Origin: Flavobacterium covae
GTDB lineage: Bacteria; Bacteroidota; Bacteroidia; Flavobacteriales; Flavobacteriaceae
Direction: 5' to 3'
Assembly: GCA_019565575.1 (NCBI GenBank)
Contig: CP067379.1
Coordinates: 310,001 to 374,000 of the forward strand
DNA length: 64,000 nt
The translations under genes were made by a program, and so were the position numbers. Positions 4,435 through 9,375 of the stretch are shown in pieces. The notes beneath the pieces are model-generated. The model worked only from the letters and a program-made list of their open reading frames with translations, was not told the origin of the DNA and made no database searches. Positions within the stretch are counted from its first letter, which is position 1. The number at the start of each line of letters is the position of its first letter.

Positions 4435-4440
4435 AAGTCA

Positions 4441-4612
4441 GCCCCCTAACCCCAAAAGGGGGAACTCCTATCAGGGGTCAATAGGATTTCATATCTACTA
4501 ATTTTTATTCTTAATCCCTCCTAAAGAGGGGTGACTGGAAGTGGGTAATCAGTTTTGCGTTTATAAATTTTTTAAGGTCTTGGGTTCCTCCCCTTTGGGG
4601 AGGTTAGGAGAG
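4441..4612. repeat. Cluster of three GC-rich palindromic repeats (metF-metH2 gap)
   Basis: Three related palindromes lie at 4441-4470 (CCCCCTAACCCC then AAAAGGGGGAAC), 4516-4537 (CCCTCCTAAAGAGGGG) and 4585-4612 (CCTCCCCTTTGGGGAGG then TTAGGAGAGGC). They stand out as GC islands in AT-rich DNA and are the same family found as ends of the DUF559 elements in metH. The last one supplies the final codons (SLS-stop) of the metH2 reading frame. Confidence 0.8.
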
Positions 4613-6454
4613 GCTTATATTAGGCGCTAGCCACTTCGTTGCTTCTTCTATAGAAATCCCTCTACGTTTGGCGTAATCTTCGACTTGGTCTTGTTTTATT
4701 TTTCCTAGTCCAAAGTATTTACTTTGCGGATTGGCAAAATAATACCCCGATACGGAAGAAGCTGGCCACATCGCCATACTTTCGGTTAATTTGACTCCTA
4801 TTTGATTTTCCACCTCCAACAACTTCCAAATGGTTGGTTTTTCCAAATGGTCTGGACAAGCTGGATAGCCTGGAGCAGGTCGGATTCCTTTATAGGACTC
4901 TTTAATTAATTCTTCGTTAGTCAAATTTTCATCGGAAGCATAACCCCAAATTTCTTTTCGCACTTTTTCGTGCAAATATTCAGCAAATGCTTCGGCAAAA
5001 CGGTCGCCTAATGCTTTGACTAAAATTGAATTATAATCATCCAATTGCTGTTCGTATTCCTTTGCTTTTTCATCGACACCAAAACCTGTGGTCACACAAA
5101 AACAGCCCATATAATCTTGTTTACCCGATTCTTTTGGCACAATAAAATCGGCCAAAGCGATATTTGGAGCACCAGCAGTCTTAACACTTTGTTGTCTCAA
5201 AGTCAAAAAGAGCCCCCTAGCCCCCAAAGGGGGAACTATCACCTTTGAGGACAATCGTTGTCTAATTTTTTCAACTGTTTCAAACAAATGCGTTAAAACT
5301 TCTGTATTGGTAAATCGTATCACTTCAAAACCTTTCGATTCCAACCATTCAGTTCGCATTTTATCGTGTTCAATTTGTTCTTGTGTATTATGAATTGAAC
5401 CATCTACTTCAATAATCAGATTCTTTTCCAAGCAAACAAAATCAACTATATATTGCCCAATAATATGTTGTCTTCGAAATTTAAACCCATCAATCCCCTT
5501 ATTAGACAACACATTCCAAAGCATTTTTTCTGCTTCTGTTGGTTGATTACGCATCTCATTAGACTTACTTTTTAATTCTTCATAAAGCATAGGATTTGCC
5601 GTTTCCCAGAACTGCTTTGACACAACGTTTAGCGTTCCCCCTTTGGGGGCTAGGGAGCTTACCTCAATATCATCATCATTAACTGTATTTGCGGGAAAAA
5701 TTCCCAAAATCCCTTTTGCTGTAAACCATTTTTCAGAAATGATTTTTTCCAACATATTCTGGGCATCCAAGAACAAATTAGTGGCTTGTTCACCTACTAC
5801 TTCATCGGTCAAAATCGCTGGATATTTACCATACAATTCCCAAGATTGAAAAAATGGCGTCCAATCAATATAACTCACCAACTCTGACAATTCAACATCT
5901 ATTATTTTTGTCCCAATAAAATTAGGTTTTGCAGGCTGATAAGAATCCCAATCGATTTGAAATTTATTTTTGCGTGCTTCTTCAATAGAAAGAAAGTTCT
6001 TTTCACGGCTTCTATTCAAATAACCATCACGTAAGGTATCATACTCTTCCCGTAGTGATTTTGCAAAATTCGCTTTTGTTTCCTCTTGTAATAAATTTGA
6101 CGCAACGGTTACTGCTCTAGACGCATCATTAACGTGAACCACTGTCGACTGGTATTCAGGTGCAATTTTCACAGCGGTGTGTGCACGTGATGTAGTTGCT
6201 CCTCCAATCATCACTGGAATTTTGATATTTAATTTATCTAATTCTTTTGCTAAATACACCATTTCGTCAAGCGAAGGTGTAATCAATCCGCTTAACCCAA
6301 TAATATCTACCTTTTCTTTGATAGCGGTATCAATAATTTTTTCAGGTGGCACCATAACCCCTAAATCGATTATTTCGAAATTATTACAAGCCAAAACCAC
6401 CGAAACAATATTTTTACCTATATCGTGTACATCGCCTTTTACAGTTGCCATCAA
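4604..6454 (-). CDS. metH: Methionine synthase MetH, C-terminal half (B12-binding and activation) with in-frame DUF559 insert
   Basis: This frame carries the cobalamin-binding domain, with the lower-ligand motif DVHDIG ([12 protein letters not shown]) in its first 20 residues, then the reactivation domain ([35 protein letters not shown]). In the cell it should be continuous with the pterin-binding part at 6833-8122. Between NDDDIEV and FLTLRQQS there are about 150 extra in-frame residues, a complete DUF559 nuclease flanked by palindrome-derived peptides (SSLAPKGGT and PPLGARGL). MetH homologues have only a short variable loop here. The insert is 450 bp with no stop, so a MetH with an extra folded domain could be made. 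Its join to the N-terminal part is broken by a second element. Whether methionine synthase still works is open. Confidence 0.85.
5210..5659 (-). mobile_element. DUF559 nuclease element 2, inserted in frame in metH2
   Basis: A 450-bp (150-codon) insert. The ends are inverted copies of one GC-rich palindrome: 5210-5236 begins GAGCCCCCTAGCCCCC and 5634-5659 ends with its near-perfect reverse complement. Between them lies a DUF559 (Vsr-like PD-(D/E)XK) domain: [37 protein letters not shown] and FEVIRFTN, with candidate catalytic Asp in IVDF and Glu/Asp in IEVDG. The element's frame equals the MetH frame across both junctions. No intein splice residues are seen. A sister copy lies at 6471-6909. 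Confidence 0.85.
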
Positions 6455-6836
6455 AATCTTGCCGGACTTGCCTGCCCCCCGCCCCCGAAGGGGGAGCTCC
6501 TAACTGTGTGTTCAATTCTTTACCTATAATTTCAATAGTTTGAAAAAGATTATTTAAAACCTCATCATTTTTAAATCTTATAACCTTGAACCCTTTTGAT
6601 TCTAGCCATTCGGTTCTAAATCTATCGTGTTCAATTTGTTCTTTATTATTATGCACAGCTCCATCTACCTCAATAACTAATTGCTTTTCAAGACATACAA
6701 AATCAACAATATATTCACCAATAATATGTTGTCTTCTAAACTTAAAACCGTCAATACCTTTATCAGAAAGCACATTCCACAGCATTTTCTCCGCTTCCGT
6801 TGGGTTATTTCGCATTGTCTTCGCACTTTCCTTCAA
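6414..6836 (-). CDS. DUF559 endonuclease-domain protein (element 1 within metH2)
   Basis: About 140 residues, opening TTG at 6836; the open frame reaches further upstream ([19 protein letters not shown]) towards the left palindrome. It is a complete DUF559 domain: [53 protein letters not shown]. The family resembles Vsr/PD-(D/E)XK endonucleases; DNA cleavage is inferred, not shown. It is about 75% identical by eye to the copy at 5210-5659 but is not in the MetH frame. The MetH frame stops at 6833, overlapping its start, and it runs 41 bp into the next MetH frame. Overall the MetH frame is the same on both sides of the element, so compensating one-base errors in the G runs at its ends could make it in-frame too. 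Confidence 0.8.
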
Positions 6837-6909
6837 CTTAGCATATAAAATTGGACTGGCAGTTTTCCACGTCTGCTTGTCAGCTCCCCCTTCGGGGGTT
6901 GGGGGCTTA
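6471..6909 (-). mobile_element. DUF559 nuclease element 1 with GC-rich inverted ends, in metH2
   Basis: The ends are GC palindromes at about 6471-6500 (CCCCCCGCCCCCGAAGGGGG) and 6882-6909 (AGCTCCCCCTTCGGGGG then TTGGGGGC), in opposite orientation. It splits MetH between the end of the pterin-binding/cap region (AVAYLMPYI) and the start of the B12 domain ([16 protein letters not shown]). This is an interdomain linker and a likely tolerated site. It contains the DUF559 gene given separately. Confidence 0.8.
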
Positions 6910-8122
6910 TATACGGCATTAAGTATGCCACTGCCTTTTTCATTACTCGGGCGGACTTCACTACTTGAGGCAAAAACATTTTACCCGAACCAAATAAATC
7001 CCCAACCACATTCATCCCATTCATTAAATGATTCTCAATCACTTCAATAGGACGAGCAACTTGTTGGCGTGCTTCTTCAACATCTATTTCTATAAATTCA
7101 TCTAATCCTTTTACTAAAGAATGTGTTAAACGTTCTTGAACAGAACCACTTCTCCATTGAGCCTCTCCCCCAGCCCCTCTCCGAAGGAGAGGGGAGCCGT
7201 CGCCTTTAATACGTTCCGCATATTCTAATAATCGTTCAGTAGCGTCATCACGTCTATCTAATAAAACATCCTCAACATGTTCTAACAATTCTTTATCAAT
7301 TTCGTCGTAAATCTCCAACATTTCAGGATTTACAATTCCCATCGTCATTCCGTGATTGATGGCGTGATATAAGAATGCTGAATGCATGGCTTCACGTACT
7401 TTGTCATTTCCTCTAAATGAAAAGGAAACATTACTTACCCCACCCGAAATATTTGCATACGGAAGATTTTCCCGAATCCATTTAGTAGCTAAAAAGAAAT
7501 CAATAGCATTACGACGATGCTCTTCCATTCCAGTTGCTACAGGAAAAATATTTGGGTCAAAAATGATATCTTCAGCAGGAAAACCTACCTTTTGAACTAA
7601 AACATCATAAGACCGCTTACAAATTTCGATACGACGCTCATAAGTATCAGCTTGACCAACCTCATCAAAGGCCATTACAATAACAGCTGCCCCATAGCGT
7701 TTAATCATCTTAGCGTGATGTATAAATGTTTCCTCTCCTTCTTTCAAAGAAATTGAATTCACCACACCTTTCCCTTGAATCACCTTAAGACCCGCTTCAA
7801 TAATTTCCCATTTAGAACTATCAATCATTACTGGAACACGGGCAATGTCAGGTTCGGCAGCAATAAGATTTAGGAATTTAGTCATAGCAAACACGCCATC
7901 TAACATCCCTTCATCCATATTCACATCAATAATTTGCGCTCCACCTTCTACTTGTGCACGTGCAATATCAAGTGCTTCATCGTACTTTTCTTCTTTAATT
8001 AATCGAAGAAATTTACGTGAACCAGTTACATTAGTTCTTTCGCCAACATTGACAAAAACAGAATTTTCATCAACGAAAAGCGGTTCAAGACCTGATAATT
8101 GTAAATTTATTTTATTTTTCAT
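6833..8122 (-). CDS. metH: Methionine synthase MetH, folate-binding part (metH2 N-terminal portion)
   Basis: It starts at ATG 8122 ([19 protein letters not shown]), the usual start of the second MetH polypeptide in flavobacteria. The pterin-binding barrel is clear: [49 protein letters not shown] and [11 protein letters not shown]. The four-helix cap before the B12 domain follows ([33 protein letters not shown]). The frame then enters element 1 and stops at 6833 after a short unrelated tail. A small GC palindrome is inserted in frame at 7159-7198, adding [13 protein letters not shown] after RIKGDG. It transfers the methyl group from 5-methyl-THF to cobalamin. Confidence 0.9.
7159..7198. repeat. 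In-frame GC-rich palindrome in metH2
   Basis: GCCTCTCCCCCAGCCCCTCTCC and GGAGAGGGGAGCC form a strong hairpin. Read in the MetH frame it encodes [12 protein letters not shown], in a loop that varies between MetH homologues. It is a coding copy of the repeat family that also bounds the DUF559 elements. Confidence 0.75.
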
Positions 8123-8242: not shown

Positions 8243-9271
8243 TTAAATTTCGACTGCTGCTCTTGGCTGAAATTCCTTAGCAACTTCTGCAATTAATTTA
8301 ATATGCTCAGGAGTTGTTCCACAACAACCTCCAATAATATTCACTAAATTCTCATCTAAATACTCCCTTATGAGTTGTTGCATTTCTTCTGCTGTTTGGT
8401 CATATTGTCCAAATGCATTCGGCAACCCCGCATTTGGGTGTGCTGAAATATTAAGTTGGGTATTATGCGCTAATCTTTTCAAATAAGGCTTCAATTGGTC
8501 AGCTCCTAAAGCACAATTGAAACCAATACTTAATAAAGGAATGTGCTGAATGGAGATTAAAAAAGCCTCTACGGTTTGCCCAGACAAGGTTCTTCCAGAA
8601 GCATCTGTAATTGTACCAGAAACCATCACTGGAATATCCAACCCTCTATCTTCCTTAACCTCTTCAATAGCAAACAAAGCCGCTTTTGCATTTAACGTAT
8701 CGAAAATAGTTTCCACCAAAAGTATATCAGCTCCACCATCAATTAATGCTTCTACTTGTTGACGATAGGCAATTTTTAAATCATCAAAAGTTACAGCTCT
8801 ATACCCTGGGTCATTGACATCAGGTGACATAGATGCCGTTCTGTTTGTTGGCCCAATTGAACCCGCTACAAAACGAGGTTTATCTGTAAACTCATCGGCT
8901 ACTTCGCGAGCAATTTTAGCCGATTGAAAATTTAATTCATAGACCAAATCCTCCATGTGGTAATCAGCCATTCCAATGGTAGTTCCTGAAAACGTATTGG
9001 TTTCAACAATATCGGCACCAGCTTGAAAATACAAACGATGCACCTCTTTCACGGCCTCTGGTTGTGTGAGGGACAATAAATCATTGTTCCCTTTTAAAGG
9101 ATGCGGAAAATCTTTGAAGCGTTCACCTCTAAAATCTTCCTCCTCAAACTTGTAACGCTGCAACATGGTTCCCATTGCGCCATCGAGCACAAGGATGCGT
9201 TGCTTTAAAATATCTTGAAGGAGCCCCCTAGCCCCCAACGGGGGAACAGCGTCTTGTTGAAAATTACTCAT
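8243..9271 (-). CDS. metH: Methionine synthase MetH, homocysteine-binding subunit (metH1)
   Basis: This is the homocysteine S-methyltransferase domain as a separate protein. I chose ATG 9271 (MSNFQQD) because upstream codons form no recognisable sequence and lie in the riboswitch expression region. The core is typical: ILVLDGAMGTMLQ, NDLLSLTQPEAV, ADIVETNTFSGT, SIGPTNRTASMSPDV, then the zinc-site cysteines in IGFNCALGAD and IGGCCGTTPEHI. Thirteen extra residues ([13 protein letters not shown]) lie between QQD and ILKQRI; they come from a GC palindrome at 9218-9251 flanked by a TCTTG direct repeat, a 39-bp in-frame insertion. About 342 residues in all. It works with MetH2 to remethylate homocysteine. 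Confidence 0.93.
   Translation of the reverse strand: MSNFQQDAVPPLGARGLLQDILKQRILVLDGAMGTMLQRYKFEEEDFRGERFKDFPHPLKGNNDLLSLTQPEAVKEVHRLYFQAGADIVETNTFSGTTIGMADYHMEDLVYELNFQSAKIAREVADEFTDKPRFVAGSIGPTNRTASMSPDVNDPGYRAVTFDDLKIAYRQQVEALIDGGADILLVETIFDTLNAKAALFAIEEVKEDRGLDIPVMVSGTITDASGRTLSGQTVEAFLISIQHIPLLSIGFNCALGADQLKPYLKRLAHNTQLNISAHPNAGLPNAFGQYDQTAEEMQQLIREYLDENLVNIIGGCCGTTPEHIKLIAEVAKEFQPRAAVEI
9213..9256. repeat. GC palindrome inserted in the metH1 N-terminus with 5-bp direct repeats
   Basis: The palindrome (CCCCCTAGCCCCC then AACGGGGGAAC) is flanked by TCTTG at 9213-9217 and 9252-9256. The 39-bp unit (insert plus one repeat) adds exactly 13 codons. The direct repeats suggest target-site duplication, so this small element moved into an existing gene. 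Confidence 0.75.
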
Positions 9272-9375
9272 ATTCTTTCTTATCATTCTAGTTGAATGGT
9301 ATACCATTGAAATTTTTACTACAAAAAAATGCTCATGAAAGATGTTATCCTGAAGTGGGAGGAAAAAAAACAAAA

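Follow-up and report, generated by a model that had tools for sequence, protein, structure and literature searches.

In the usual view, splicing out is the price at which inteins and introns reside in essential genes. The Rickettsia palindromic elements are palindromic repeats that lie in frame within unrelated protein genes and, to our knowledge, carry no nuclease gene. The nearest published case that we found is the ShiLan domain of phage methylases (PMC11855218); the same text describes a lone LAGLIDADG insertion that was apparently inherited vertically. Here we analysed a 64,000-nucleotide (nt) stretch of the Flavobacterium covae genome, called the window (contig CP067379.1, positions 310,001 to 374,000). 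Its metH gene, made up of a homocysteine-methyltransferase half and a second half, contains two elements that each carry a DUF559 nuclease domain between inverted GC palindromes. Such elements probably form a family of selfish, homing-like DNA whose product stays in the host protein as an unspliced domain.

Element 2 lies at a position called site B and element 1 at site A, in the linker between the MetH cap domain and the B12 domain. Their features are:

5211..5659, minus strand: element 2, DUF559 element at MetH site B (activation domain), with a palindrome at each end
5211..5247, no strand: terminal GC palindrome of element 2 on the MetH 3′ side, inverted repeat I1
5623..5659, no strand: terminal GC palindrome of element 2 on the MetH 5′ side, inverted repeat I1
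5252..5578, minus strand: DUF559 (Vsr-like PD-(D/E)XK) nuclease domain of element 2, PF04480 match
4604..6454, minus strand: open reading frame (ORF) for the B12 and activation domains at the C-terminal end of MetH, in which the element 2 DUF559 is embedded
6474..6906 (approximate), minus strand: element 1, DUF559 element at MetH site A, with a palindrome at each end
6474..6498, no strand: terminal GC palindrome of element 1 on the MetH 3′ side, inverted repeat I4
6882..6906, no strand: terminal GC palindrome of element 1 on the MetH 5′ side, inverted repeat I4
6513..6839, minus strand: DUF559 nuclease domain of element 1, PF04480, E 6.8e-38
6833..8122, minus strand: ORF of the MetH part with the pterin and cap domains, which enters element 1 and stops there

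The inverted arms of element 2 are 37 nt long and 84% complementary. They enclose 449 bp, so that the length of exactly 450 bp given in a preliminary description of this DNA holds only when base 5210 is counted. The remainder of that account of element 2 agreed with our results: the inverted GC palindromes bound a full DUF559 domain (E 1.0e-36 in the genome search; 1.8e-35 in Pfam, over the cut-off), and the MetH frame runs across both junctions, ORF 4604..6454 being open throughout. The Pfam matches of this ORF were B12-binding and Met_synt_B12, the latter split in two with DUF559 between. The alignment with E. coli MetH breaks at the same loop as the insertion; on E. coli MetH 3bul, chain residues 366 and 381 flank the place that corresponds to site B of the window protein. 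The arms of element 1 are 25 nt long and 92% complementary. Its location before the B12 domain, with the same MetH frame on either side, was also described correctly (8122-6454 = 3 × 556). Relatives with an empty site A exist, as do relatives with an empty site B. Elements 1 and 2 were the only DUF559 matches in the 3.40-Mb genome (E up to 0.001).

The same nuclease family was found at recurrent sites in other genomes. DUF559 matches occurred in 105 of 199 genomes at genus level, 119 of 249 at family level and 170 of 296 at phylum level, counts that include weak and free-standing matches. The genus sample consisted of 80 regions and then 40 more for the remaining matches with E up to 1.3e-21; partial matches (weaker than about 1e-10) and matches further down lie outside it. 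The DUF559 tree, the residue counts and the frame counts use 85 rows, namely the first 80 regions and the window, five low-scoring secondary rows of 90 having been dropped. The 40 regions added later gave 41 rows, which served only for the check on free-standing genes and its hairpin count. Host names were taken from NCBIfam, the RecB-like helicase being below the NCBIfam cut-offs. MetH accounts for 19 of the 85 rows at site A, one more there with a stop (window element 1) and 8 at site B; LeuRS accounts for 20 at one loop and 1 at a second place. The remaining rows lie in the RecB-like helicase (10), RecG (9) and other genes (2) or are free-standing (15). Insertion at the same site in homologous genes, as expected of homing, was found in this way, with empty alleles shown only for MetH sites A and B.

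The preliminary description had called for the frequency of in-frame insertion. Among the assessable copies at the five main sites, 63 of 65 were in the host frame on both sides (p ~1e-27 under a random frame of one in three, related copies not being independent), and 2 more were truncated by contig ends. It had also inferred that the elements spread through coding genes; the DUF559 elements do not do so freely and recur at a few fixed loops of conserved genes. We considered that out-of-frame copies might be hidden as free-standing DUF559 genes and rejected this. No MetH, LeuRS, RecG or helicase part was found beside any of 55 free-standing DUF559 genes (15 + 40 loci; tblastn with host parts only, 1e-5), and four filled loci used as a control did match host parts. 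A tblastn search with whole host proteins was set aside because its matches centred on DUF559 itself. Broken inserts in these hosts were therefore not overlooked at the free-standing genes.

The scan of named genomes covered the best 80 of 576 confirmed loci, and its shares lean towards window-like sequences. It gave 84 DUF559 rows: MetH site A held 58 of them and site B held 9, LeuRS had 2, 6 were free and 9 lay in other frames. The left anchor was in frame in 55 of the 58 site-A rows, and the other 3 start at a contig end. Within these best 80 loci, the same DUF559 family occupies site A in records titled Flavobacteriia, Cytophagia, Chitinophagaceae, Ignavibacterium and others. Further hosts named by NCBIfam were adenine deaminase, HsdR, HisD with a C-terminal extension and, in a record titled Candidatus Saccharibacteria, urocanate hydratase; methionyl-tRNA synthetase was over the NCBIfam cut-off only for the C-terminal domain model. 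In an Emticicia metagenome-assembled genome (L295 4098-5729), a single open frame runs from subunit A of 3-oxoacid CoA-transferase through the element into subunit B, of which it includes the first 119 of 207 positions. In a separate group of loci (L212, L220, L222, L227 and L235), DUF559 was fused in frame upstream of a sequence starting with LSTK, several with palindrome peptides between; this sequence presumably resembles uroporphyrinogen-III synthase.

The DUF559 tree showed that nuclease lineages are bound to host sites. The nine host-site labels on the 85 rows need 9 changes, against a minimum of 8 and a shuffled mean of 54. The RecG rows form one clade and the helicase rows another, and the rows of a single genome (e.g. 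G138) fall in several site groups. Supported branches force the site-A rows into two groups. One consists of window element 1, L058 and L059, which join the 8 rows from site B (98/88); the remaining 17 stand separately. From these sequences, the grouping is best read as a move between MetH sites A and B.

The occupancy of site A was followed on a MetH host tree built by a quick method from 85 chosen rows (filled loci, the 30 loci nearest the window and 40 selected from the listing, some of them because of an odd length; of 89 loci, 4 remained unparsed), and the 20 filled rows of 85 are not a frequency. Occupancy needs 15 changes on this tree, 12 of them forced by supported branches, compared with 18 after shuffling. 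We then compared synonymous divergence of element and host in 17 disjoint pairs chosen by host divergence only (p<0.01). The element was less diverged than the host in 5 of the 17 pairs, the strongest case being 2/62 versus 100/264 (p 4e-9), and more diverged in 2. The genomes G138 and G028 carry a near-identical element at MetH site B, yet they have different elements at LeuRS. Both signs expected of homing, a patchy distribution (15 changes for 20 of 85) and a divergence discordant with that of the host (7 of 17 pairs), were found.

The preliminary description had placed DUF559 among the Vsr-like PD-(D/E)XK nucleases, and the curated cut-off, the residues and the fold all place the element nuclease there. 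In the 85 rows, E33 was conserved in 85, D62, E73 and D75 in 84 each, and H79 in 82; in this family, these are residues of catalytic type. The three rows without H79 are the LeuRS copies L133, L134 and L136, which are also without recognisable palindromes and look decayed. The median ratio of nonsynonymous to synonymous substitution was 0.084 for the domain and 0.063 for the host flanks (19 pairs each; 19 of 20 chosen for the domain). These pairs were chosen as DUF559 sisters, which biases them to low element divergence, and they were not used for the transfer question. The nuclease is under strong purifying selection. A profile search of the PDB matched 3hrl (8e-33) and the homing endonuclease I-Bth0305I (3r3p, 1.3e-6). 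The predicted domain structure, with a predicted local distance difference test score (pLDDT) of 85.6, gave VIA-align Z values of 15.7 for 3hrl, 11.4 for I-Bth0305I and 9.9 for Vsr, and Foldseek gave 4.7e-5 against I-Bth0305I. A predicted structure of MetH with the insert (pLDDT 51, predicted template modelling score 0.35, shallow alignment) was not used.

Where both ends are clear, the elements are about 410–520 bp in size. Many MetH copies start with AGCCCCC and finish with GGGGGCT, with a hairpin just inside, and the site-B ends of L069 are perfect inverted copies over 30 nt. Of the 85 elements, 47 had a GC hairpin on each side no more than 120 bp away, compared with 1 of 381 control positions; among the later free-standing DUF559 rows, hairpins lay on both sides in 10 of 41. 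The terminal inverted repeat exceeded the 99% control level in 43 of 84 elements (RecG, 0 of 9; helicase, 2 of 10). MetH and many LeuRS copies have such repeats, which are not a feature of every site. The insert is about 150 residues long and mostly nuclease; at site A, the stretch that it replaces is the linker between ...AYLLPFIE and ...GKVLMATVKG. The ends of the MetH elements read as PPxPxGG ... PPSGAGG, rich in proline and glycine, and should form flexible linkers. No Hint/intein splicing domain occurred among the Pfam matches (E up to 0.01) of 5 host proteins, and no Rfam intron family was matched at the gathering threshold in 9 loci. An intein and a group I or group II intron were rejected on these grounds; the preliminary description had also seen no such signals.

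The palindromes occur with and without the nuclease. Two solitary ones lie in the metH of the window, which has at least four palindrome-type inserts:

7162..7198, no strand: solitary GC palindrome in MetH, in frame, without DUF559, reading as a peptide of 13 letters
9218..9247, no strand: in-frame solitary GC palindrome close to the N-terminal end of the homocysteine-methyltransferase half, repeat D2, in ORF 8243..9373

The palindrome at 7162..7198 is common to Flavobacterium davisii and replaces a loop present in the 7 other relatives compared. The palindrome core has 9 matches in the window (at most 2 mismatches; two overlapping) versus 0.40 expected, and a related palindrome has 26 matches in the whole genome (at most 3 mismatches) versus 0 for the reversed control. 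This recurrence is beyond chance. Unrelated protein genes with in-frame palindromic inserts, as for the Rickettsia type, were found: besides MetH, the same genome has palindromes within the open frames for isoleucyl-tRNA synthetase (IleRS) and for two proteins that are primase-like and glycosyltransferase-like, respectively; the IleRS frame (L020 521-3022) has the palindrome peptide VPPSGARGL in frame and no DUF559. The frame of an IcmF-like gene shifts at one of its two palindromes, and TrpG-like and DnaQ-like frames have a palindrome at the N-terminal end. Many palindromes and close inverted pairs without DUF559 are present in this genome and in others, and they are more scattered than the DUF559 elements. 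Palindromes of the window type occurred in 48 of 52 genomes with host-embedded DUF559 versus 41 of 147 others, a comparison that ignores relatedness and counts the elements' own ends. Five rows have in-frame, palindrome-only minis at MetH site B, among which L087 and L203 look like internal-deletion remnants of a DUF559 element.

Some further observations concern the surroundings of metH. Several palindromes lie at 4436-4604, between a metF-like gene and metH and outside the MetF and MetH frames. The DNA of the metH region is about 84–88% identical to that of F. davisii 90-106 in the main alignments. The F. davisii metH (L264) also has both elements, with the site-A copy in frame and the site-B copy broken; single-base differences in runs elsewhere in this gene suggest possible assembly indels. 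SAM riboswitches were found in the metH loci of relatives (L058 881-987, L069 7700-7803 and L264 1090-1208), and Flavo-1 RNAs in loci L069 and L076. The plasmid search gave no match.

Cutting and homing are inferred from the nuclease family, the fold, the site fidelity, the scattered occupancy and the selection on the domain. The host gene would supply the promoter and the ribosome site, and host and nuclease would be translated as one open frame in which the proline- and glycine-rich ends serve as linkers. The nuclease may then fold as a looped-out module of the host enzyme and cut homologous alleles without the element at the conserved DNA flanking the loop, and repair from the filled copy would install the element. 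Occasionally, a lineage may reach a new site, for example between MetH sites A and B. Copies would later decay, either losing active-site residues or shrinking through internal deletions to palindrome-only minis. The palindromes may aid movement, or they may merely be tolerable linkers and boundaries. A broader version of this explanation, which we consider about evenly balanced between right and wrong, is that these are phylum-wide mobile protein domains. Nuclease modules would colonise exposed loops of housekeeping enzymes, be translated and never removed, and home across species via the host gene; the GC-palindrome ends would double as DNA termini and flexible linkers, and the solitary in-frame palindromes would be non-autonomous or decayed forms.

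Three other explanations were weighed against the homing-like one. A DUF559 domain may have entered each site a single time, in an ancestor, and then passed down by vertical descent, being lost many times and perhaps serving the host. The preliminary description had named such an old domain gain as the outcome that would overturn its reading, and part of this was found: the same family at site A in many Bacteroidota (58 of 84 rows in the best 80 of 576 named loci) points to old residence there, and the purifying selection on the nuclease and the correlation between element and host (Mantel r 0.40) fit it as well. An old gain does not explain the 15 changes of occupancy on 85 rows, the split of the site-A rows into two groups, of which one is joined to site B, or the elements that are less diverged than the host in 5 pairs and more diverged in 2; nor does it explain why one nuclease family sits in different loops of unrelated metabolic, tRNA-charging and repair enzymes. 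We regard it as unlikely, with a small but real chance. It is quite improbable that the palindromes are mobile units moved by another enzyme, in the manner of REP/RAYT (repetitive extragenic palindromes and their associated transposases) or of miniature inverted-repeat transposable elements (MITEs), with DUF559 as a passenger between two of them. The many palindromes and close inverted pairs without DUF559, and the genomes that have palindromes yet no DUF559 match, would suit this explanation. It conflicts with the binding of DUF559 lineages to host sites, with the RecG and helicase copies, whose terminal repeats are mostly weak and which still sit in frame at fixed sites, and with palindrome carriage, which strongly tracks host-embedded DUF559 (relatedness being ignored).

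To the last explanation, that an unrecognised intron, bypass or protein-splicing mechanism takes out the insert once it has been transcribed or translated and leaves a mature enzyme without it, we give hardly any credence. Inserts inside conserved enzymes and hairpins often present at both ends are what it would lead one to expect, and the broken frames of window element 1 and of the L064 site-B copy would be tolerable if the insert were removed at the RNA level. RNA removal would not require both frames to stay open, as they do in 63 of 65 copies, and the Rfam and Pfam results for the 9 loci and 5 proteins also speak against it.

Several observations weigh against the homing-like explanation itself. 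The two out-of-frame copies are window element 1 and L064 (site B); in element 1 the MetH frame is closed by a stop within the element, and its DUF559 is in another frame. An indel error in its G/C runs may be responsible, since the genome is rated 88.4% complete and 5.7% contaminated in one contig. When filled and empty alleles were aligned, as the preliminary description had proposed, the MetH insert was seen by eye to substitute for a variable loop, not to be cleanly added, and no target duplication was seen at the MetH sites. No clear hairpin was present on one or both sides of 38 of the 85 elements, and palindromes persist in some genomes without any DUF559 match (29 copies in G056), so that the nuclease is not needed for their persistence. 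The LeuRS rows are not one group (4 changes), and the B-to-A direction of the site switch rests on a weaker fork (support 91/61). Site-A labels showed somewhat more clustering than shuffled labels did (an equally low count in 14–16 of 500), and in 10 of the 17 host-nearest pairs element and host did not disagree significantly. Co-conversion might lower the synonymous divergence of the flanks; no such drop was seen by eye (30-codon bins, 29 pairs). For 67 MetH site-A copies, DUF559 identity correlated with host identity (Mantel r 0.40, p 0.001; 55 named rows with enough host sequence, seven genus loci duplicated among the named loci being omitted), which indicates that much of the site-A history is vertical. 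Judged from the sequences, long vertical residence and occasional transfer would coexist at site A. Cleavage, homing and the unspliced product are deduced from sequence. With these reservations, the selfish, homing-like and in-frame reading of the preliminary description was supported by the empty sites, the patchy occupancy, the site-bound lineages, the conserved residues and the frame counts.

The homing-like explanation accounts for the presence of DUF559 in enzymes such as MetH, LeuRS and RecG, and it suggests what the host-embedded domain may do. It also points to enzyme loops into which a folded module of about 150 residues can be inserted, and to a way, open to testing, in which selfish DNA could give rise to new protein domains.

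A description of in-frame DUF559 insertion elements was not found in the open-access literature (titles and abstract starts; most subscription journals lie outside it). I-Bth0305I (PDB 3r3p) and Vsr share the sequence profile and the fold with the element nuclease. The solved entry of I-Bth0305I is named a mobile intron protein; the nuclease described here is instead a domain of its host protein, and neither an intron (9 loci) nor an intein (5 proteins) was detected. Like these elements, inteins insert at the same site in conserved genes, have a patchy spread and carry a nuclease in the host frame; they differ by a splicing domain, none of which was found here, and the insert is mostly nuclease. 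The elements appear to live in essential genes without splicing, through tolerant loops and ends that read as linkers. DNA transposons and MITEs have terminal inverted repeats, which exceeded the control level in a part of the elements (43 of 84); no target-site duplication was seen at MetH by eye. Several solitary palindromes look similar to Rickettsia palindromic elements; those are not known to have a gene inside, whereas the elements described here carry DUF559. Caulobacter VsrA (PMC12907096) has the same Vsr-like DUF559 domain, free-standing; it is a separate gene with a predicted role in mismatch repair, whereas here the domain is embedded in unrelated enzymes. The WHO elements of yeasts (PMC7282813) also home into a metabolic gene without protein splicing; they are reported to replace the 3′ end of FBA1 at each integration and are not internal in-frame domains. 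The ShiLan domain (PMC11855218) is likewise described as a frame-keeping insert with an endonuclease, a disjunct distribution and no known splicing. Its HNH nuclease is out of frame with the phage host gene, whereas the elements described here have one shared frame, many palindromic ends and cellular hosts.

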